Shown here piece by piece: positions 42,757-53,197 of a DNA stretch of 64,000 nucleotides. Source of the DNA: Flavobacteriaceae bacterium S0862 (GTDB lineage Bacteria; Bacteroidota; Bacteroidia; Flavobacteriales; Flavobacteriaceae); assembly GCA_023015825.1 (NCBI GenBank), contig JALKAW010000004.1, positions 269,126-333,125 on the forward strand. The letters run 5' to 3'. The translations under genes and the position numbers were made by a program. The first letter of the stretch is position 1. Each line of letters begins with the position of its first letter. The notes beneath the pieces were generated by a model. It was not told the origin of the DNA. It saw only the letters and a list, made by a program, of their open reading frames with translations, and did no database searches.

Positions 42757-43647
42757 TTATTTTAGTATAAATTCTGTAGAAGACACTAAATCCTTTTGGT
42801 CAAAAACGTTTACAACATAACGTCCTGCGCTAAACTTATCTGCTCCTCTTGCATCAACAAACTCACATACATCTAAATTTCTTGACTCATAATTAAACTT
42901 GCTTATTAAGCTGTAGTTTAATGTTGTTTCTTCAAATTTAATTTGCTCATTTAATCCCAAAACATTGCTTTGTGGATCCAATACCTGTACAAAGAACTCT
43001 TTATCACCTTTTTCAACTAAGTTGTTTTTAGCCACTGTATAGCATACTCTAATTTTATCTACTCTTCTAGCTCTTTCCATTGGAACTAATTTTCCAGAAG
43101 TACGGACCAATACACCATAACCTTCCAATTTAGCTGCAGTTAAAACTGCTGCGTTTTCAACGATATCAGCTAATTCAGAGTTTTGAACCAATAAAGAGTC
43201 GTTAAACATAGTTGTAGATTCAAGCTCAATTTTTGTACTGTCTAAAGATGATGCCAATAATACGTTCTCTACTTTTAAAGAATCATTTTCAGCTAGAATC
43301 ACATCCATTTCAGATTGAAGATCTAAGAATTTCTTTTTGTATCTCCATAAACTTCTCACTGAGTTTTCCGAAACTTTTAAAGAATCCATTAGGCCTTTAA
43401 TACGTTCTCTAGCTTCCACTAGCTTTTGGTTTGCAACCTCGTTTTCACCAATTGCCACATCAAACTGAGCAGCCATATTGTTAAGGTCTTTTAATACCAA
43501 TTCTTTTTCTTCTGTTAATTGTTTTTTTGTATCTACACTATCGTTGTATAATGAGTACGAATAAAATGCTGTACCTACTAGTAATAATACTGCGATGCTT
43601 AAAATTACTTTTAAACTTCTGTTGTTTTCTGCAGCTTTGTTTTCCAT
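42757..43647 (-). CDS. Membrane-anchored coiled-coil protein
   Basis: The product is 296 residues. One N-terminal helix (about 13-32, SLKVILSIAVLLLVGTAFYS) is followed by a long heptad-rich coiled coil (about 35-175). A C-terminal beta-rich domain contains KIRVCYTVAKNN, FFVQVLDPQSNVLG and SAGRYVVNVFD, which resembles a small immunoglobulin-like fold. ATG 43647 (MENKAAENN) is preferred because the 24 upstream codons are AT-rich leader without family character. The coil would lie in the periplasm. The function is unknown; such proteins are common in flavobacteria. Confidence 0.78.
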   Translation of the reverse strand: MENKAAENNRSLKVILSIAVLLLVGTAFYSYSLYNDSVDTKKQLTEEKELVLKDLNNMAAQFDVAIGENEVANQKLVEARERIKGLMDSLKVSENSVRSLWRYKKKFLDLQSEMDVILAENDSLKVENVLLASSLDSTKIELESTTMFNDSLLVQNSELADIVENAAVLTAAKLEGYGVLVRTSGKLVPMERARRVDKIRVCYTVAKNNLVEKGDKEFFVQVLDPQSNVLGLNEQIKFEETTLNYSLISKFNYESRNLDVCEFVDARGADKFSAGRYVVNVFDQKDLVSSTEFILK

Positions 43648-43969
43648 AATTGATAATTGTTTTGTTAATTGTTTTATAAATCTAATTAAAACTTTAATGT
43701 TTGTTTTTGTAATGAGCAAATAATTATAACCATGTAATTAACAATTACTAATTAAAACCTCATTCAGCATTATATACGACAAACTAAAAAGTTTAGATGT
43801 CGAACCCTATTGAATATCTTTTACAAACTAACATCGATATTACAAAACATCGATAAATAAAGCGATAGCACCATTTTAGTTTGTAGTAAAAGTTTTGTTA
43901 AAATTTAAAACGAAGTTTGTTTTCGTGTAACTTTTTTAGAATATCTTCGTCGTATTTGAAACTAAATCT
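43648..43969. other. 322-bp divergent intergenic region
   Basis: It separates the coiled-coil gene from the VTT-domain gene and should hold both promoters. No exact TAnnTTTG element, hairpin or small gene was found. TATCTTCG near 43946 is one base off the consensus and may serve the plus-strand gene. Confidence 0.4.
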
Positions 43970-44591: not shown

Positions 44592-46286
44592 CTAATTATC
44601 AACTTGCTTCAACGAATCAATTTTACGTTGCAAGGCGTCTATTTGTTCTTGGTTTTTGCTAGTATTTGGAATGTTTTTAATAGTATCGGTCACTGCTTTG
44701 ATTAAATCGATATCGACCGTTGGTTTCTCCTCATAATAATACCCAATACCTTCACTAGAACGCCACGCCTCAGATAATTGATCATACACAGTCTTATCCC
44801 AAGTGCTTGGACGCTTTACATCTATCCAAACCACATCACGATATTCACTATCAACCAACGCTAAATCAGGTGTTGCAGAACCATCAAAATTTCCAGAACC
44901 TTCTTTTACCGCAGACACTGTTCCTAAGAAGAACATTCGCTTTCTTCCAGCAATATCTTTAATATATGGTCTAAACTCTACAGGTTTATTTACAGACCAA
45001 TCAAATTCTTTTCGAGATTCAATTATCTTTAAAGGCATTGCAGACACACCTGCATATCCTTGTTTTTTGGCTGCATGGTCAAAATAATACAATTTATCAG
45101 TTCCATCTGCAGGAATAAAGACACTAAAAGTTAAACTTGTTCGCTCTACTCCTACTGGTTCTAACCCAAACCAATGGTATAAACCACTATAAGCATCAGT
45201 TAGTGAACCTTCAAAATTAAAATCGGTAACAAATGGTTGTTGATTTTGGTCATCTGGTAAATCTGGAATTTTAACAGCAGTTTCCATATTCCAAGGCAAC
45301 GGGTCGCTAAAACCTCCCAAAAATTTTAAAGATTCTGCTTGCAAACGTGATACTTTTTCAGATAAGGTATTTTGTTTGGTTAAAAAGGGATAGTTTTTCA
45401 TATCCTCAGGACTAATGAAAGTGCCTTTACCTATCAAAACACGTTCAAGATAATCGTTAAAATCGTGTGCACCATTTTCAATAATAACTACACCTCCAAA
45501 AGTTGGATAAGGAAAGAAAAAACCTTTCCAATTAATCAAACTCACGACTTGAACCCATTCACCATCATCATTTTTCATATAAAACACATCTCCAGGTTCT
45601 GTTGAGAATAGTTTTGCAATTCCGAAGCGTTGTACTACTGCATTATAAGTGTTTCGACTAAATTTTAATGATTCACCAATGGAGAATGTTACAGGTATTC
45701 TATTTTCACTAGAAAACCTCGGAAAAGGGTTTGTACTGGACACTGAAAATACTTCTTCGGTATTATCGCTTATTCGTTGCCAAATATATTTTACTGTTGG
45801 TTGAATAGCCATTGTCCATTGGTTTTCTCCATCGACTCTTACTAAATGTGGCAACGATACATCTTTGGTTTCTCCAACAGATTCGTTTGCCATGGAGAAA
45901 ATATTGCGTAATGGTTGTATGCGTTCGTTTTGAGTAAGTGGTAACTCATGAATTTCAACTTTATTTAAATCATTAAATACATTATAGGTTTTCATGTAGT
46001 CGTACATTTTATAATGCCAACCAACGACGTAAATTATTCCGAAGATTACCACTAACAAACCTAAAATAGCAAGGCGTTTACCAGAACTGGGTGTTCGTCT
46101 GAATTTTTTTAATAAAAAGAACAGAATTATTCCGCTTAATAAGATAACAAAAATGAATTTTCTAATAAACAGCAAAAAAGGTTGGTATTCATCACGAAGA
46201 ATAAACAATAAGAATAGCAAAATAATACTACCAATAATAGTAATTCCTTTTTGCTTTTTTCCTTTATTCCAATATCGTTTTATCAT
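44592..46286 (-). CDS. Large membrane protein, last gene of the unknown AAA operon
   Basis: The product is 564 residues with three hydrophobic helices near the N-terminus (about 14-30, 37-60, 70-92). A domain of about 430 residues follows, probably outside the cytoplasm, with no recognised family. Readable segments are GDVFYMKNDDGEWVQVVSL, WFGLEPVGVERTSLTFSVF and GRKRMFFLGTVSAV. The last 30 residues form a short coil (EQIDALQRKIDSLKQ). It is 15 bp downstream of the 63-residue gene and may be the membrane output or scaffold of the seven-gene system. Confidence 0.75.
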   Translation of the reverse strand: MIKRYWNKGKKQKGITIIGSIILLFLLFILRDEYQPFLLFIRKFIFVILLSGIILFFLLKKFRRTPSSGKRLAILGLLVVIFGIIYVVGWHYKMYDYMKTYNVFNDLNKVEIHELPLTQNERIQPLRNIFSMANESVGETKDVSLPHLVRVDGENQWTMAIQPTVKYIWQRISDNTEEVFSVSSTNPFPRFSSENRIPVTFSIGESLKFSRNTYNAVVQRFGIAKLFSTEPGDVFYMKNDDGEWVQVVSLINWKGFFFPYPTFGGVVIIENGAHDFNDYLERVLIGKGTFISPEDMKNYPFLTKQNTLSEKVSRLQAESLKFLGGFSDPLPWNMETAVKIPDLPDDQNQQPFVTDFNFEGSLTDAYSGLYHWFGLEPVGVERTSLTFSVFIPADGTDKLYYFDHAAKKQGYAGVSAMPLKIIESRKEFDWSVNKPVEFRPYIKDIAGRKRMFFLGTVSAVKEGSGNFDGSATPDLALVDSEYRDVVWIDVKRPSTWDKTVYDQLSEAWRSSEGIGYYYEEKPTVDIDLIKAVTDTIKNIPNTSKNQEQIDALQRKIDSLKQVDN

Positions 46287-46301
46287 GTATAGTAATTTTA
46301 T

Positions 46302-46493
46302 TTAATTTTCACCACGCTTATTAACATGCTTAATACTTAAGACCATAGCAACAATCATCAGTACTTTAGATAAAGGTCCTAGAACGTTTCCCCATGAAAA
46401 TACCTTATCATAATCAACAGTGTAAATAAAATCTAGTATTAATAAAATACCAAATAAAACAATCATGATATATCGGAACTTATTGTTAATCAT
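46302..46493 (-). CDS. 63-residue two-helix membrane protein
   Basis: The protein has two hydrophobic segments (about 9-26 and 37-55) joined by a short loop and ends in a charged tail VNKRGEN. It lies one base from the gene upstream and 15 bp from the gene downstream, so it is firmly within the operon. No family was recognised. Confidence 0.75.
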   Translation of the reverse strand: MINNKFRYIMIVLFGILLILDFIYTVDYDKVFSWGNVLGPLSKVLMIVAMVLSIKHVNKRGEN

Positions 46494-46494
46494 G

Positions 46495-47049
46495 CTATTT
46501 TAAAAACCCTTTATCTTTTAAGCGCTCTCTAGCACTTTTCTTTTCTTCTTTTGGTGCGTCTTTAACTTCCGGAGCATCATCACTCTCTATTACGTTTTCG
46601 TCCACATTATCATCTTTTGTAGTGATATCATCTAGAAATTCTTTACTCTTTTCAATAGTTTCACTAACCATATCAGTTAAAGTATCACTTTTTTCGTCTA
46701 CAATTTTTCCAGACTTTAATACAAAATTGGCTAAATAGGTGCCTATAACAGTTCCAACAACACTAGAAGCAAAAGTAGAAACGCCATTGTAGCTTCCAAA
46801 AGGTTTAAATGGCGTAAAAAATTGTAGCACTAGGGACACCATTAGAAATAAAAACGCAACATAAACTATACGCAACAGAAATTTTTGCTGAAATACAAAT
46901 CCTGTTCTGTCGTTTTCTTTCATTTGCAATTCTTTATAATTAACAATCTTGTTTACAAAACGATACAAGCCATTTCCATTGGATTCTCTCCAATATAACA
47001 GCACGCCAAATAAAATGGCTGAGATAAATACAATGAGTTCTATGGTCAT
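46495..47049 (-). CDS. Membrane protein with charged C-terminal tail (AAA operon)
   Basis: The product is 184 residues. An N-terminal hydrophobic segment (about 3-20) and two central helices (about 60-80 and 90-110) are seen. The last contains small-residue spacing (GVSTFASSVVGTVIGTYLA), suggesting tight helix packing. The C-terminal 70 residues are acidic then basic and likely disordered in the cytoplasm. No known family was found. It is 46 bp after the DUF6638-like gene. Confidence 0.75.
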   Translation of the reverse strand: MTIELIVFISAILFGVLLYWRESNGNGLYRFVNKIVNYKELQMKENDRTGFVFQQKFLLRIVYVAFLFLMVSLVLQFFTPFKPFGSYNGVSTFASSVVGTVIGTYLANFVLKSGKIVDEKSDTLTDMVSETIEKSKEFLDDITTKDDNVDENVIESDDAPEVKDAPKEEKKSARERLKDKGFLK

Positions 47050-47095
47050 AACTTATACTTTTAGTGACTATTCCTATAAAGTTAGTCTATAATTT

Positions 47096-48331
47096 TTAAA
47101 TATTGTTACTAATTGTCTCAATTACCCAATCTTGAAAGGACTCATTCCAAGTTTCGTAACTCTTGTAAAACTGTTCTTTATCATACCAATACAGAAATAA
47201 CACATCTTTTGGGGATACATTAATTAAAAGTCTCCAAATTAAATCGTATTGTTTTATATCTAACGATGAATGTGGTTGATGCAAAGCAAAATAAAAGCTC
47301 TGGTCAACTAAATCGGCAATTTTAAAAGCATTACTTCGCTCTATCCGTTCTAAGTATATTTCTACACCTGTTACACGTTTTAAAGCGTTTGCATCAATGG
47401 TATTTAAATATCTACGGAATAATACTTTATCATTCAAAATATCCTTAATTGGATGCTCAGTTTTCTTTAATTCATTAAATAACATTACTTTTTTAATGCG
47501 GTCGTATCGCTTGTCTTTTACAACCTCATCTAAGTTACATTCAATAATTAAGTGATCTCTTAATTTATCCATCAATTCTGGTTGTGAAATATGGTAAATT
47601 AACACATCGTGAACTGTATCTTTAATAGCCTCTTTATGTGCTTCTTCATCTTGAAACACTACAATTGGCGAAATAAAATCACGCAACACATAAATACCAC
47701 CAAAAGCCTTAGTAAAAAAAGAATTAGTCTTAAATTCAATAGGCTTTAAGTATAATTTTCGATGACGTAAATCACCATGTTTTTTTGCCGAATCTAATAA
47801 TTCTTGATGAATTGTTTCATTAACAAAATTATTGCCTTGATTAAACTTTTCGACTAGCTCTAATTGTTCCTCTTGAATATGAAATAAGTTATTTATTAAA
47901 TGAAAATTAATAGAAACAGTATCATATTTCAATACATCTAATGGTCCAAAAAACGTGTCTATGTGTTGGTCGAAATCTATACAAATGGCACAATCTCTGG
48001 TGATATCGCTTATAGCATCTCCATGCTCTTTAAAGATAAGTTGCATCATATCTCTATCAAACGTGTGGGTTGGCACATATACAGGTTTGCCCTTTTGCAA
48101 TGGAGAAATAATGATTCCATGAGGGTTAGCTTCACCATGATTAAGATACTGTAAATCTTTCTTTTCTTCGGCAATTTCTGGACTCCAACCTAAACCATCT
48201 ATAGAAAAGGTTTTAAGCTTAGTCGCTTTAAAGCCCAATTTTTCTAAACATAAGTTATAACGCTCAACCATCTTCCCACTTACTGGAATGAGCTCGCTTC
48301 TATATAAATTTGCTGCTTTTAGTTTTTTCAT
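47096..48331 (-). CDS. DUF6638-like protein (AAA operon)
   Basis: This 411-residue soluble protein has no signal peptide or membrane helix. I associate it with DUF6638 from memory of flavobacterial annotations; that link is uncertain. Distinct segments are GLGWSPEIAEEKKD near the start, GIIISPLQKGKPVYVP, a Cys/Asp stretch ITRDCAICIDFD, and LDIKQYDLIWRLLINVSPKDVLFLYWY near the end. It contains no obvious catalytic motif. It follows the AAA ATPase gene after a 225-bp gap on the same strand. Confidence 0.75.
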   Translation of the reverse strand: MKKLKAANLYRSELIPVSGKMVERYNLCLEKLGFKATKLKTFSIDGLGWSPEIAEEKKDLQYLNHGEANPHGIIISPLQKGKPVYVPTHTFDRDMMQLIFKEHGDAISDITRDCAICIDFDQHIDTFFGPLDVLKYDTVSINFHLINNLFHIQEEQLELVEKFNQGNNFVNETIHQELLDSAKKHGDLRHRKLYLKPIEFKTNSFFTKAFGGIYVLRDFISPIVVFQDEEAHKEAIKDTVHDVLIYHISQPELMDKLRDHLIIECNLDEVVKDKRYDRIKKVMLFNELKKTEHPIKDILNDKVLFRRYLNTIDANALKRVTGVEIYLERIERSNAFKIADLVDQSFYFALHQPHSSLDIKQYDLIWRLLINVSPKDVLFLYWYDKEQFYKSYETWNESFQDWVIETISNNI

Positions 48332-48556
48332 TTTCTATTAAGGTATCTTTTTCTACTTATTTATAGTTTGCCAAAATAGTTTCATATTCTTAGAATCTAT
48401 GTTCTCTTATTGGTTTAACATAAGGCTCAGTATTAAAATATAACAACAGACAAGGAGAAATATTTCTATATGAATCCATAAACTCTTGATTAATTAATTC
48501 ACTATTCGCAATTCTCTTTTAAATAATGTTATGATATGGATACATCTTCCTTATAA

Positions 48557-50518
48557 CTAGTTTTTACCAAACTGTTCTCTTGCCTCTTGATCAATGTTTA
48601 ATTGATTAACTCGTGCATCCACTTTTCGTTTAAAATCCGTATCTGCAATGGTTGCTACATTATCTAAATAACGCACTACTTCTTGTCGTCTAATTTCAGA
48701 GAAATCCAAACCTTTCATATTGGCTCGCATCAATTCTTGTAGCATATTAAACTTAGTGTCGTAATCTTTCTTAAAGTAGATATCTGGGTTTTCAAACCAA
48801 TCTTCTTCCAAGTCGAAATCGGTTAAGCGCAATGACACTGCACTTTGAATGTTTCTCACATCACGTGATGAGAAAAACGGGAATATCTTTTGAATTTCCT
48901 TATATAAATTCGCATAAAACAAATGCTGATTTGTTTTAAAGTTCTTCTCTACCTTATCATAGGCTTCTAAAACTAGCTCTTCTGCTGGCTTATCTGTTAT
49001 TTTTAGGATTTCTCCCATATTTTTTGCCAAGCCTTGATCTTGCAAATAACTATAGTTTTCTGGCCCTTGCATATTTACAAAATCTGGCATAGTATCATCC
49101 AATTTTCGCCACCATAAATGATCTTGATCTAAGAAGTCATGTTCCGTTCGTGCTCCATCAATTAAAAATCGCCCTTGAACACGCGAAATCACTGCTTTAT
49201 CTAACATCTCAGGAAGGTTAGTAAACAATCCAATAGAACTATTTCCATAGTTTACAGCATAAGCACCTTCGGTATATCTCAAAAACACGCCTATAACTTC
49301 TTTGACACCAGCAGAAACCCCTTGTGCAGTACGCTCTTGCAAGTTGTTTTCGGCATCATCAATTGGAGCAAAAATCAAACGTGTTGGGTCTTGTAAGGGT
49401 TTCATCCACTCTACCATTTTCTCAGCAGAGCCACCTTGAAATGTACTAATTAACGTATCAGGCATTGGATGAAACAAAAATGGAATATCTAGATTATCAC
49501 AATGTTCTTTTAGTCGTGTAGCAATCGCAGCAATCAACATACTCTTCCCAGTACCTGGAATTCCGTAACCCATAAATACTGGCATAAAGCCACCTAATTC
49601 TTGAAATGGGTTTTTTTGAGCTGCAAAATCGTAGCTCAACATGCGTTCGGTTAAACGACGAGCAAAATGTTTTGCATCTCTGTTACCAACTATTTGTTCA
49701 AATTGTATTTTATTAAACTCTACACTTTTGGCAGCTCCTGCAAATACATTCTCCCAACCTGAAACCGCAAAATCTGAGTTTTCAAGTTTATATGTTCTGT
49801 CGAGAATAGTTTCGGTATATTCTAAAGAACTCTTGCGCAATTGAATTTCATCAATTAGTGCTTCAAAATATACAATCGTAAAATCAATTACATCTTTATC
49901 AGTCTTTACAATATCTGGATGGCTTAAATACTTGTCATAATAGAATAAAGCACAAGCAATTCCTTTAAGAGGCGACATAAAGGATACTTCAGGAATACCT
50001 GCGAATTTATTTTTCATAACGCTTAAATCATCTGAAGCATGTGGTTGTAAATTATGAAGAATATTATATGCTGTTGCAAATAACATAAAAGCAGTTGCTG
50101 TATGCATTTTACTTTCGTACTCACGCTTTCCAGCATTATCGAGAAAAGATTTACGTTCACTCAAACTAGATAATCCAGAGGCGTCGTAATAACTGTCTTT
50201 TATCCAAATTCCTAACGTTAATCCCTCTTGAACAGCAAATAAAGTTTCATTTAAGTGAATGGGGATTGCCACAGAATCTGGTAATAAGCGTTTTTTCAAT
50301 GCTAAAATAGTTTTAGATACAGAGGTGACTTCAACACCTCCATTACCTCCTTGGGCTCTTGATAAATACAATAAAATAGATTCATCTTTACCATTATTTT
50401 CTTTGTTTTTTGCACGTTGACCTTGTTCCCATTGTACACTTTTTATATACGACGTCGCTTCGTCACGAAGTGCATCGAGCTCATTTTGTTTTATTGGAAA
50501 TGTTGAGTTGTGTTCCAT
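48557..50518 (-). CDS. AAA-family ATPase, core of the unknown operon
   Basis: This 653-residue protein has an N-terminal domain of about 300 residues with no recognised family. It carries one classic AAA module: Walker A GIPGTGKS (319-326), a pore-loop-like TFQGG (359-363), Walker B-type LIFAPIDDAEN (Asp387, Asp388, Glu390), sensor-1 Asn434 in LFTNLP, and arginine fingers Arg446 and Arg450 in ISRVQGRF. The pore loop and fingers suggest a hexameric ring that threads or remodels protein, like katanin- or ClpX-type machines, rather than a DNA helicase. Neighbours encode a coiled-coil protein and membrane proteins, which may be its substrates or anchors. Confidence 0.88.
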   Translation of the reverse strand: MEHNSTFPIKQNELDALRDEATSYIKSVQWEQGQRAKNKENNGKDESILLYLSRAQGGNGGVEVTSVSKTILALKKRLLPDSVAIPIHLNETLFAVQEGLTLGIWIKDSYYDASGLSSLSERKSFLDNAGKREYESKMHTATAFMLFATAYNILHNLQPHASDDLSVMKNKFAGIPEVSFMSPLKGIACALFYYDKYLSHPDIVKTDKDVIDFTIVYFEALIDEIQLRKSSLEYTETILDRTYKLENSDFAVSGWENVFAGAAKSVEFNKIQFEQIVGNRDAKHFARRLTERMLSYDFAAQKNPFQELGGFMPVFMGYGIPGTGKSMLIAAIATRLKEHCDNLDIPFLFHPMPDTLISTFQGGSAEKMVEWMKPLQDPTRLIFAPIDDAENNLQERTAQGVSAGVKEVIGVFLRYTEGAYAVNYGNSSIGLFTNLPEMLDKAVISRVQGRFLIDGARTEHDFLDQDHLWWRKLDDTMPDFVNMQGPENYSYLQDQGLAKNMGEILKITDKPAEELVLEAYDKVEKNFKTNQHLFYANLYKEIQKIFPFFSSRDVRNIQSAVSLRLTDFDLEEDWFENPDIYFKKDYDTKFNMLQELMRANMKGLDFSEIRRQEVVRYLDNVATIADTDFKRKVDARVNQLNIDQEAREQFGKN

Positions 50519-50590
50519 ATGTTTTAGTGTTCAGCTACAGTCGCAGTCAACAGTTCTAAATACTAAGACTGGAGAGACTGAGAAATACTT

Positions 50591-51646
50591 TTATATTGTT
50601 TTTAAATCAGCCATTTGAATTGGTGGTTTTGCCAACATATTCATAATATCTGGTGTTTTATTATAGAGCATTTGTATAATGCGATGTGGTGCAAATACAT
50701 ATTCTTGCTTTACAACATCACTCCAGTTTTGTAGGGTTTGTTTACTAAAAAAACTACCTTCTTTAAATTCGCAACCAGAAAACACTTCATCTATTTTTAG
50801 AGATATTGCGTACGATTCTAAAGGGATTTCTTTTTTGCCAATGCCATCAAGAATTGCGTGTGTAATCTCATTTTCATCCTTTGCAAATACATTATGCAAA
50901 GGCCCTAAGTCTATTCGTTTTATATGCTTTGGAAAAAAATTTGGTAGCTTTCTATCTATAGCATAAGCCATAGTATCTAAAGACATGTTTCTATCTGCTA
51001 CGTTTTTTAAAACCTCATATACTTTATCTTTATAATCGAGAAATTTTTGACCATCATAATCAAAATACATAAAGCAGATAAATGGTCTGTTAAGTGATAC
51101 ATCGTAGAAACTCCAGCTAGTTAATAATTCTCCTTGACTATGCTTTGGTGCCGAAATAATTTTGCCTTGGACAAATCGATTAAAAATAAATTTCTGCTGA
51201 ACAGATTTATAATACACTATAGATGCAGCCTGAAAGAGCTTGCTTTTCTTAACTTGTACTTTTTTACGCATTAAGGTGTCCAAAAATTCTTTTTTTAATG
51301 CTTCAGCAGGAATTAATTTATCTAAATATTCAGTTCTTAATGATAAATCATTGAACAAATAGCGAAACTCTAAATAATTTGGAAAACCAGAATCGGTTAA
51401 ATCAATCTTCATATTATCCTCTTCATCGTACATGTATTTTACACGCATGGCTTCTATAGAATATAGCAACAAATCAGAGTATTGCTTAAAAAAGATTAGT
51501 TCTTTCTCATTACATATTTGCTGACGCTGAACATTAACTATGAGTTCTTTTAAAGTGAAATCTACCATTTTATGGTAAAACACATATTGCTCTTTAGAAT
51601 CGAGTTCTGCGGAATCTAATGGTGTTACAATGTGGTTAATAGACAT
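50591..51646 (-). CDS. Unknown soluble protein (AAA operon)
   Basis: The product is 351 residues, cytosolic by lack of signal or membrane segments. It is mainly helical in the first 130 residues (FYHKMVDFTLKELIVNV). A mixed domain follows with NRPFICFMYFDYDGQKFLDYKDKVYEVL and HAILDGIGKKEIPLES. The family was not recognised and no catalytic motif was found. It is placed between the coiled-coil gene (68 bp) and the ATPase gene (72 bp), so it may be an adaptor. Confidence 0.75.
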   Translation of the reverse strand: MSINHIVTPLDSAELDSKEQYVFYHKMVDFTLKELIVNVQRQQICNEKELIFFKQYSDLLLYSIEAMRVKYMYDEEDNMKIDLTDSGFPNYLEFRYLFNDLSLRTEYLDKLIPAEALKKEFLDTLMRKKVQVKKSKLFQAASIVYYKSVQQKFIFNRFVQGKIISAPKHSQGELLTSWSFYDVSLNRPFICFMYFDYDGQKFLDYKDKVYEVLKNVADRNMSLDTMAYAIDRKLPNFFPKHIKRIDLGPLHNVFAKDENEITHAILDGIGKKEIPLESYAISLKIDEVFSGCEFKEGSFFSKQTLQNWSDVVKQEYVFAPHRIIQMLYNKTPDIMNMLAKPPIQMADLKTI

Positions 51647-51714
51647 TACTAATTAAGAAAATGGTTAAAAAATTTAATAAGAAAAATTGTGCCTCTCGAA
51701 AGAAGCACAAATTA

Positions 51715-53055
51715 TTATGATAACAAATCGTCGTCTCCTTCAGGTTTAGGATTTGCTCTTTCGCCTCCATCATCTCCAGCTGGAGGATTGTTTTCTGCTT
51801 TATAATACTCTTCGAAAATCTCTTTCATATCGATGCCATAACGGTCAGCAAAATTCTTCTGAATTTCAGCATCCTTCACACGGATTTCTTGTAAAGCCTC
51901 AGCATAACTACCATACACGCCTTGCATTACTTTTTCGTGCACAGGAATATTGTCCATCATTTCTTGTCTGGCCTTAGCAGAAGCAGTATGCATTGCTGCT
52001 AAAGTTTCACCAATATGCTCATCGGTTTTTACACCTAAGTGCTCTAAAATAGCAGCAAATTCTTGGTCTGTACGTGCTTTTAATGCAACAACATAACCAT
52101 CGTAATATTTTAAACGTTCTTCGGTGTCGGATTTTAATTTGGCTCTATGAGTCTGTAGGTTACTTCTTAACGATGTTAATACCTTAATTGTCAAGTTATG
52201 CTTATGCACAAAACTGTCTTTAGAAGCGGCTAAAGTGGTATAAGCGTTTTTCAAACCTTCCAATTCTTCTACTTTTTGTTCTAACTGTGTCACTTTTCCT
52301 ATAGCCTGAGCATAATCTGCAGATTGTTTATCTACAATTTCTTCTAGTTCTTGACGTGCTTGCTTTAAAAGCGCATATTTTTCTTCTAAAAGGCTTTCTA
52401 CTTCTTTCTTCTTCTCAAGAGCCTTAGTATGGTTTTTAGTTGCTTCGACAATGGCATCTTGAAGTTTATCTTCGACCTCTTTAATCTCTACTTCACGATC
52501 TTTTAAACGTTTAACGGCTGCTTGACTTTTAAAAGATAATTCGTTTAATAATGTTTGTACATCAGCATTTTCTATACGCTGCTGAAATAAGGCTTTTGCT
52601 TTATTATCTGCCTCATCACGAGACTTTTGAGCTGCTTTTAGTTCGTCTTGCGCTTTTTTAATCTTGCTTTTTCTTCCCCAAAGGTTATTCCACCAAGTAT
52701 CTGGTTTATTTTCAGCATCTTCAAGTTCAACTCTCGCACGCTCTAAACGCTTAATAGCACTATCAATAATTTTCTGTTCATCACCATTTAACGAGGAAAA
52801 GTTTTCGAAAATAATCCCTACTTCATCTTGGTAGTCTGTAAGATCCTTAATGGCATCTAATAAAGACGTTCTGTCTTTTTCAGCCATATGAACAACATCA
52901 TCCAATGTAGCATTTAATATTTTTTGACGCATTTCAGGGTCGTCTTCCTGAGCTAATTTCGATTTCATTGTATCGATAGCTTTTCCCCAATTTACATCTA
53001 CTTTTTCTTGTTTCTCGTTAGAATTGGTTTCTAATAAATCAAAATCATCAGACAT
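51715..53055 (-). CDS. Coiled-coil protein, first gene of the AAA operon
   Basis: The product is 446 residues, nearly all helical. Long heptad regions (about 90-330) contain KKAQDELKAAQKSRDEADNK and KKKEVESLLEEKYALLKQ. A C-terminal helical part follows (KYYDGYVVALKARTDQEFAAIL), then an acidic, Gly/Pro-rich tail. A tryptophan-rich spot (DTWWNNLWG, about 137-145) breaks the first coil. ATG 53055 (MSDDFDLLE) is preferred over 17 upstream codons. Similar proteins are annotated as microtubule-binding-like in flavobacteria only because of coil content. It is probably a structural scaffold for the ATPase. Confidence 0.8.
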   Translation of the reverse strand: MSDDFDLLETNSNEKQEKVDVNWGKAIDTMKSKLAQEDDPEMRQKILNATLDDVVHMAEKDRTSLLDAIKDLTDYQDEVGIIFENFSSLNGDEQKIIDSAIKRLERARVELEDAENKPDTWWNNLWGRKSKIKKAQDELKAAQKSRDEADNKAKALFQQRIENADVQTLLNELSFKSQAAVKRLKDREVEIKEVEDKLQDAIVEATKNHTKALEKKKEVESLLEEKYALLKQARQELEEIVDKQSADYAQAIGKVTQLEQKVEELEGLKNAYTTLAASKDSFVHKHNLTIKVLTSLRSNLQTHRAKLKSDTEERLKYYDGYVVALKARTDQEFAAILEHLGVKTDEHIGETLAAMHTASAKARQEMMDNIPVHEKVMQGVYGSYAEALQEIRVKDAEIQKNFADRYGIDMKEIFEEYYKAENNPPAGDDGGERANPKPEGDDDLLS

Positions 53056-53197
53056 ATTGTGTAGTATTTTTTTAAGTAGTTGAACATAATGTGAATAGTT
53101 AAGCAATTTCGTTAAAAAATATGATTTTTTAAATAGAAACTCCTCAAAATATTTGTAGTAGTAAAGTGAAAAATGTTACAGATAATATTGAAATAAA

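Follow-up and report, generated by a model that had tools for sequence, protein, structure and literature searches.

We analysed a 64,000-nucleotide stretch of the genome of Flavobacteriaceae bacterium S0862 (assembly GCA_023015825.1, contig JALKAW010000004.1, positions 269,126 to 333,125; the window in what follows). The genome comprises 38 contigs with 3.35 Mb in total. A block of minus-strand genes in the window, named A to G here in the direction of transcription, encodes an AAA ATPase (C) together with a coiled-coil protein (A), two further partners (B and D) and a set of membrane proteins. The inheritance pattern of these genes indicates that their products probably work together as one machine. 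As judged from sequence, its conserved core is A-B-C-D, common to Flavobacteriaceae and Proteobacteria, and its membrane part differs by lineage. Our best reading, which we put forward tentatively, is a membrane-tethered AAA machine that would remodel, or work through, a coiled-coil assembly.

Gene A (51715..53055, minus strand, as for the other genes and features of the block) codes for 446 amino acids if translation starts at the ATG at 53055; an in-frame TTG at 53106 is an alternative upstream start. It is followed by B (50591..51646, 351 residues, no known family), the classic AAA ATPase C (48557..50518, 653 residues), D (47096..48331, 411 residues, DUF6638), E (46495..47049, 184 residues, with a hydrophobic N-terminal part and a charged tail), the small open reading frame F (46302..46493, 63 residues, with two hydrophobic stretches) and G (44592..46286, 564 residues, with three hydrophobic stretches near the N terminus as well as a large domain). 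A first-pass annotation had listed seven minus-strand open reading frames, and all of them are present with the order and positions it gave them. It had also described their spacing as tight. Most gaps are indeed short (A-B 68, B-C 72, D-E 46, E-F 1 and F-G 15 bp), but the C-D gap measures 225 bp (48332-48556), and a terminator-like hairpin with a T tract lies immediately 3' of the A stop codon (51687-51710).

A scan of one genome per species (84,980 species) gave 306 stretches encoding relatives of C, from which the best 80, the closer relatives, were kept. The nearest named relatives by C are Gaetbulibacter (98%) and Pontimicrobium (96%); Olleya and Algibacter are also among the genera. A, B, C, D, E and G are all present in 77 of the 80 loci, while the incomplete ones (L070, L106 and L112) lie on short or cut contigs of 3.4, 12.0 and 6.9 kb. 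The comparison of gene order that the first-pass annotation had proposed finds these six genes as collinear neighbours on the same strand in 77/77 complete loci. Homologues of A occur in 78/80 loci. Median identities to the window are 86% for A, 87% for C, 76% for G, 74% for B, 68% for D and 54% for E; for the flanking genes EttA, hutI and a gene labelled dn_320 they are 95, 73 and 62%. The C-D gap contains a Nudix hydrolase gene of the NudK/YffH group in 55/78 loci (a match anywhere in the locus in 56/80; for example L057:4865-5548).

Within the family, full-length C was found in 94 of 299 Flavobacteriaceae genomes, and 7 others gave weak AAA matches only. A draw across the phylum gave full-length C in 3/148 genomes, the source genome counted, all of them Flavobacteriaceae, and weak AAA matches in 6 more; DUF6638 was present in 4/296 genomes, again with the source genome counted and all in the same family, and in 0/14 control genomes. 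C and G occur together in 94 of the 299 genomes, C alone in none, G alone in one and neither in 204 (G total 95, one further weak match having been dropped). In the single genome with G only (G272), a Nudix gene and G lie near EttA, and A, C and D gave no match.

Several genomes carry the block in separate pieces. On the single contig of G220, the parts occupy three separate places: 1.83 Mb (A-B-C, close to EttA), 2.58 Mb (D-E) and 2.68 Mb (G). G376 and G251 have A-D on one contig, with more than 10 kb beyond D, and G (E-G in G376) on another; C and D are separated by other genes over about 4 kb in G291 and G435. Since all parts are kept after their separation in G220, the pattern points to dependence rather than mere linkage. 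Of all the evidence in this analysis, such retention speaks most strongly for a shared function, and G220 and G272 can be regarded as natural experiments on which parts depend on which.

The core extends beyond the Bacteroidota. Proteobacteria were covered through plasmid records, 72,556 of which were searched with tblastn. C was found in ten (Vibrio 4, Sinorhizobium 4, Shinella 1, Rhizobium 1), and the same ten were recovered with Vibrio C and with Sinorhizobium D as queries. Six of these loci were read (L127, L128, L129, L137, L138 and L139), and all six have A-B-C-D in order on one strand. The proteobacterial A-D proteins are 20-28% identical to those of the window (A 20-23%; blastp), and the Vibrio proteins resemble their Sinorhizobium counterparts at 31-38% (A, B and C) and 26% (D). 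E and G were not found in the six loci, and G matched no plasmid or phage record. A DUF2333 gene follows D in three of them (L128, L129 and L138, but not L137, L127 or L139), that is, in three of the four rhizobial loci. The L128 protein matches PF10095 with 58.7 bits. Two hydrophobic segments lie at the N terminus of the rhizobial DUF2333 protein, which shows no detectable kinship with G. In the literature, DUF2333 appears in a paper on an orphan hcp locus of a type VI secretion system. L128 also contains a transposase gene and an endonuclease-domain gene between C and D. On two Vibrio megaplasmids the gene directly after D is mfd, encoding the transcription-repair coupling factor (L127:13130-16591; L139:13295-16756). 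In R. leguminosarum the four-gene core is followed by what we take to be an RpoD-like sigma factor gene (L137:9503-11539). The first-pass annotation had treated the seven genes as one unit. One machine is still the preferred interpretation, but the unit consists of the four-gene core plus a lineage-specific membrane part.

C carries PF00004 above the curated Pfam cut-off (34.1 versus 21.2 bits); the Vibrio and Sinorhizobium proteins score 50.0 and 41.8 bits. The solved chains nearest to its profile are VCP-like/Cdc48 proteins, proteasomal ATPases, Vps4, PCH2 and katanin, with FtsH also among the solved relatives. This likeness covers the AAA domain only, and the long N-terminal region is without a significant Pfam match. 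Motifs were read from a cross-phylum alignment of 12 sequences (A1) and also counted in the 80 loci. All 80 loci have the Walker A motif GIPGTGKS (residues 319-326, 49541..49564), and P321 to K325 are invariant in A1. Pore loop 1 is formed by F360, Q361 and G362 (49433..49441), the first residue being Phe or Tyr and aromatic in 12/12 sequences of A1, and aligns to the YYG/WVG of a VCP-like ATPase; the pattern STFQGGSAE is matched in 79/80 loci. Across the phyla, the 12-sequence alignment shows little or no variation at the sensor-1 Asn and at two Arg. R446 and R450 (49169..49183), invariant in 12/12, are candidate arginine fingers by their position.

The Walker B motif LIFAPIDD (residues 381-388, 49355..49378) has an Asp at the position of the catalytic Glu. 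D387 and D388 are invariant (12/12), IFAPIDDAEN is found in 80/80 loci, and every C checked reads IDD, preceded by a two-residue insertion, where classic AAA proteins, including the aligned VCP-like ATPase, have IDE. The earlier description of C as a classic AAA protein with a pore loop and (candidate) arginine fingers is borne out by PF00004 and the motifs, but not with respect to Walker B, which is non-standard (D-D) and lacks the catalytic Glu; membership in PF00004 stands regardless. C shares the AAA domain, the aromatic pore loop, the sensor-1 Asn and the arginines of the second region of homology with Cdc48/VCP, Vps4, katanin, PCH2 and the proteasomal group. It differs from this group by the long N-terminal region without a Pfam match, IDD for IDE and the two-residue insertion, and from Vps4 also in that neither MIT nor Vps4_C was matched in Pfam at E<=1 by the C proteins of the window, Vibrio and Sinorhizobium.

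Within the Flavobacteriaceae relatives, A is conserved over nearly its whole length. Because this conservation matches that of its ATPase, it suggests that A may form an ordered assembly. The coiled-coil partner noted in the first-pass annotation is confirmed, but the Trp-rich break described there aligns to a gap in three proteobacterial A proteins. A ends in the acidic, dileucine-type peptide DDLLS (51718..51732). The form DD[LM]L[SG] was found behind a variable polar linker in 76/76 sequences (70 DDLL, 6 DDML), which are 76 of the 78 A sequences, L050 and L057 having been dropped by a length and start filter; the tail is also kept in the more distant relatives L146, L148, L149, L151, L152 and L154. 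E has a basic counterpart, ARERLKDKG (46507..46533). AR.RLKDKG, followed by 1-3 residues at the end, stands after a variable charged stretch in 77/77 sequences, and an exact-match DNA pattern for the motif occurs once in the source genome, at E. The E tail is kept in the distant L148, L149, L151 and L153, with small changes in L150 and L166. The near-invariant A tail and the invariant E tail are newly noted here. Conserved short ends behind variable linkers resemble docking peptides, and we propose both as docking tags. The two tails open the assembly of the machine to single-mutation tests.

D is a true member of DUF6638 (PF20343, E 7.3e-33, 114.5 bits against a cut-off of 27), as the first-pass annotation had suggested, and membership also holds for the Vibrio, Sinorhizobium and Shinella proteins; the family has no assigned function. 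For A, B, E, F and G, no match beyond chance or coiled-coil likeness was found in Pfam, NCBIfam, PADLOC or PHROG. B gave nothing in Pfam, NCBIfam or PADLOC at E<=1 and one PHROG at 0.022. Comparison with PDB sequences yielded nothing significant for the B and D profiles, nor for G as a single sequence. The AlphaFold2 (AF2) model of B has a predicted local distance difference test score (pLDDT) of 85.0 and a predicted template modelling score (pTM) of 0.83; for D the values are 81.8 and 0.70. Foldseek returned no match for the B model, and the D model matched no PDB or viral structure, both at E<=0.001; the best VIA-align hit of D has a Z of 3.9 over about 40 residues (145-187). The earlier statement that no roles are assigned holds: none of the comparisons by families (all four), PDB sequences (B, D and G) or structures (B and D) linked B, D, E or G to a known pathway. 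Two proposed kinships found no support. Profile comparison does not support B and D as mutual relatives. TelA (PF05816) is helical and, with about 360-390 residues, near the proteobacterial A proteins in length; its kinship with A is unsupported, given an hhalign probability of ~0.1 (from shallow profiles) and a source genome with A present and no TelA match.

The first-pass annotation had grouped three membrane proteins as one module. E and G have hydrophobic segments and are conserved (each in 77/80 loci), but F falls outside the conserved genes: it was matched in 5/80 loci at E<=1e-8, and in 7/77 between E and G with a loose limit. The E-G gap reaches 195 bp in 10/77 loci. On the sequence evidence, E-F-G is the lineage-specific membrane part. 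Hydropathy analysis gives G three N-terminal hydrophobic segments, and the hydrophobic part has a DUF4199 match below threshold (0.00016, 22.6 bits, cut-off 32.3). By the positive-inside rule, the large domain of G would lie outside the inner membrane. E has two clear hydrophobic segments. A third one, around residues 93-111, has a borderline hydropathy of 1.55 in the window (>=1.6 in 52/77 relatives). If it spans the membrane, the same rule would place the E tail inside. A relationship of G to DUF2333 (PF10095) was considered and dropped, as there was no Pfam match at E<=1 and hhalign gave 0.2 against the rhizobial proteins, with shallow profiles.

Based on these observations we propose the following mechanism. 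C would form a ring that uses ATP to thread or pull protein through its pore, as its motifs suggest. A, probably as an ordered assembly, would be the main client or track of C, with its acidic C-terminal peptide as a likely handle. B and D would act as dedicated adaptors linking the ring, the coiled coil and the membrane. In Flavobacteriaceae, the basic C-terminal peptide of E would hold the machine at the inner membrane. The first protein to consider as a reader of this tail is D, because D and E are still paired in G220, where the block is split in three. G would couple the machine to a large domain outside the membrane, and in some rhizobia the unrelated DUF2333 membrane protein occupies the position expected for E-G.

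A close parallel is offered by ESCRT-III, where a helical partner likewise bears a short C-terminal peptide, as in A. Both ESCRT-III/Vps4 and PspA systems (PMC11237479) combine a single AAA domain with a helical coiled-coil partner. The present system differs in having B, D, E and G in addition, and A (window, Vibrio and Sinorhizobium) has no Snf7 or PspA match in Pfam at E<=1, which leaves room for a remoter kinship. No paper describing the A-G system was found in the literature searched, and none on DUF6638/PF20343 either; the broader queries led to papers about ESCRT, PSP, Streptomyces and archaeal genes.

Several points weigh against a membrane-tethered remodelling machine. A matches no ESCRT-III, PspA or known filament family in Pfam or NCBIfam. 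The Vibrio and rhizobial A proteins end differently, without the DDLL tail. Beside A-D there is no obvious membrane gene in R. leguminosarum (by eye) or in two Vibrio loci, so that attachment to the membrane may not be a general trait. As known from other AAA proteins, Asp in place of the Walker B Glu should slow hydrolysis, so the motor may be slow or switch-like. Finally, if the third segment of E does not span the membrane, its tail would point to the outside, and docking through E could not work as proposed; this borderline topology slightly lowers our confidence.

Alternatively, C and the adaptors B and D could extract or unfold damaged or misinserted envelope proteins, with A as a scaffold and E-G as envelope sensors. 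Such a role in protein quality control is consistent with the complete threading motifs of C, with the membrane part in Flavobacteriaceae and with the solved structures related to its AAA domain, which include Cdc48, proteasomal ATPases and an FtsH. We consider it rather unlikely: no protease domain was found in A-G (Pfam, NCBIfam), the conservation of A exceeds that of the other partners and is more in keeping with a specific client than with a scaffold, and more than two thirds of the family genomes (the 204 of 299 above) do without both C and G. Another possibility is a cytoskeletal filament of A, severed by a katanin-like C to shape or position cells and with the membrane part as a mere anchor. 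The conservation along A speaks for it, as does the likeness of the AAA domain to the solved katanin and Vps4 chains. We regard it as improbable, since A is matched by no filament family and C has no MIT-type domain match.

The fold of B raises another alternative. In the AF2 model, residues 160-320 follow the order strand-strand-helix-helix-strand-(helix)-strand, and many of the best structural matches are the tunnelling-fold (T-fold) enzymes urate oxidase, pyruvoyl-tetrahydropterin synthase, dihydroneopterin aldolase and GTP cyclohydrolase I. The likeness, over residues ~160-320, is weak (Z <=4.5, r.m.s.d. 3.9-4.0, 104-117 residues) and within the described noise of the tool. Tunnelling folds build rings and tunnels, so one may speculate about a B ring that sits on top of the C ring. 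B might be a tunnelling-fold-type enzyme or ring subunit that is remodelled by C, in the manner of plant Rubisco activase, which, like C, carries Asp in place of the Walker B Glu. Given the noise-level Z and the missing Foldseek match, and with the coiled coil and the membrane part left unexplained, such an activase or assembly factor seems slightly more improbable still than a severed filament.

The surroundings of the block bear on how it was inherited. Of 66 full loci, 58 have EttA within the upstream 10-kb flank, 52 have dn_320 in the downstream flank and 50 have both. The gene dn_320 (42757-43719 in the window) encodes a coiled coil and one hydrophobic segment, without a significant family; it often adjoins hutI and EttA, with or without the operon. 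Among the genomes that lack C, 16 were searched for EttA, and the adjoining DNA was read in ten. In four of these (L155, L157, L158 and L159) EttA, dn_320 and a gene that we presume, from its sequence, to encode a formimidoylglutamase-like protein lie close together, and A-G are absent. The same genes lie wider apart in L160 and L156, L162 and L163 have no dn_320 there, and L161 and L164 contain little of the neighbourhood. Pairwise distances of C correlate with those of dn_320 (r 0.76, n 60) and hutI (r 0.72, n 26) and, less closely, with those of EttA (r 0.47, n 61). Since the C distances follow those of the neighbours and the site is shared with genomes without A-G, vertical descent with losses seems to fit better than a mobile block. 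The Nudix gene was rejected as a part of the machine and is seen as a neighbour, because it also keeps its place close to EttA in G162, where A-G are missing, and in G272, where G is the sole gene of the block.

An anti-phage or other conflict system, to which the patchy occurrence in the family, the large plasmids of Proteobacteria and a weak score of C with IetA models (6.2e-5) might point, is very improbable in view of the regular EttA flank and the tracking of C with hutI and dn_320, and also because the IetA matches are generic AAA sequence, the other proteins gave nothing or coiled-coil likeness (A-JetC 0.0009), C and G match no phage record, viral contigs yield no relative, and the 8 phage records matched by Vibrio C are covered over 22-30% of its length only. 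Among IetAS and the other PADLOC defence systems, none had more than one gene confidently matched; the matches were weak ones (C-IetA, A-JetC and others).

Further features of the block concern its gaps. The hairpin between A and B is kept in the nearest relatives L047 and L048, and different hairpins occur in a few others. Attenuation, by which A would be made in excess, was rejected as a general claim, as a hairpin follows A in 7/76 loci against 2.7 expected by mononucleotide shuffling. The Bacteroidota-type promoter pattern gave 4 matches against 3.6 expected, none of them before A. In several loci, operon gaps, mostly B-C and D-E, contain small genes that we take to be four-helix (23S intervening-sequence)-like and GIY-YIG-like (for example L103:13915-14343; L068:14232-14570). 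Between C and D, the distant loci L148 (8067-12089) and L149 (8311-11815) have four genes, presumably for amidohydrolase-like, SnoaL-like and signal-peptidase-like proteins and a small membrane protein.

Taken together, the observation of a seven-gene block is partly confirmed and its interpretation as one remodelling, extraction or cytoskeleton-like machine partly supported. The membrane-tethered machine could, in a further step that we consider possible but doubtful, represent a second bacterial engine for polymer or membrane remodelling, with a client unrelated to ESCRT-III/PspA. It would consist of an AAA ring, its own coiled-coil polymer, two adaptors outside known families and a plug-in anchor filled by unrelated proteins in each lineage, recruited by short C-terminal peptides. 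For the Flavobacteriaceae that carry it, the block in any case encodes a probably ATP-driven multi-protein system whose core has been kept together over two phyla.

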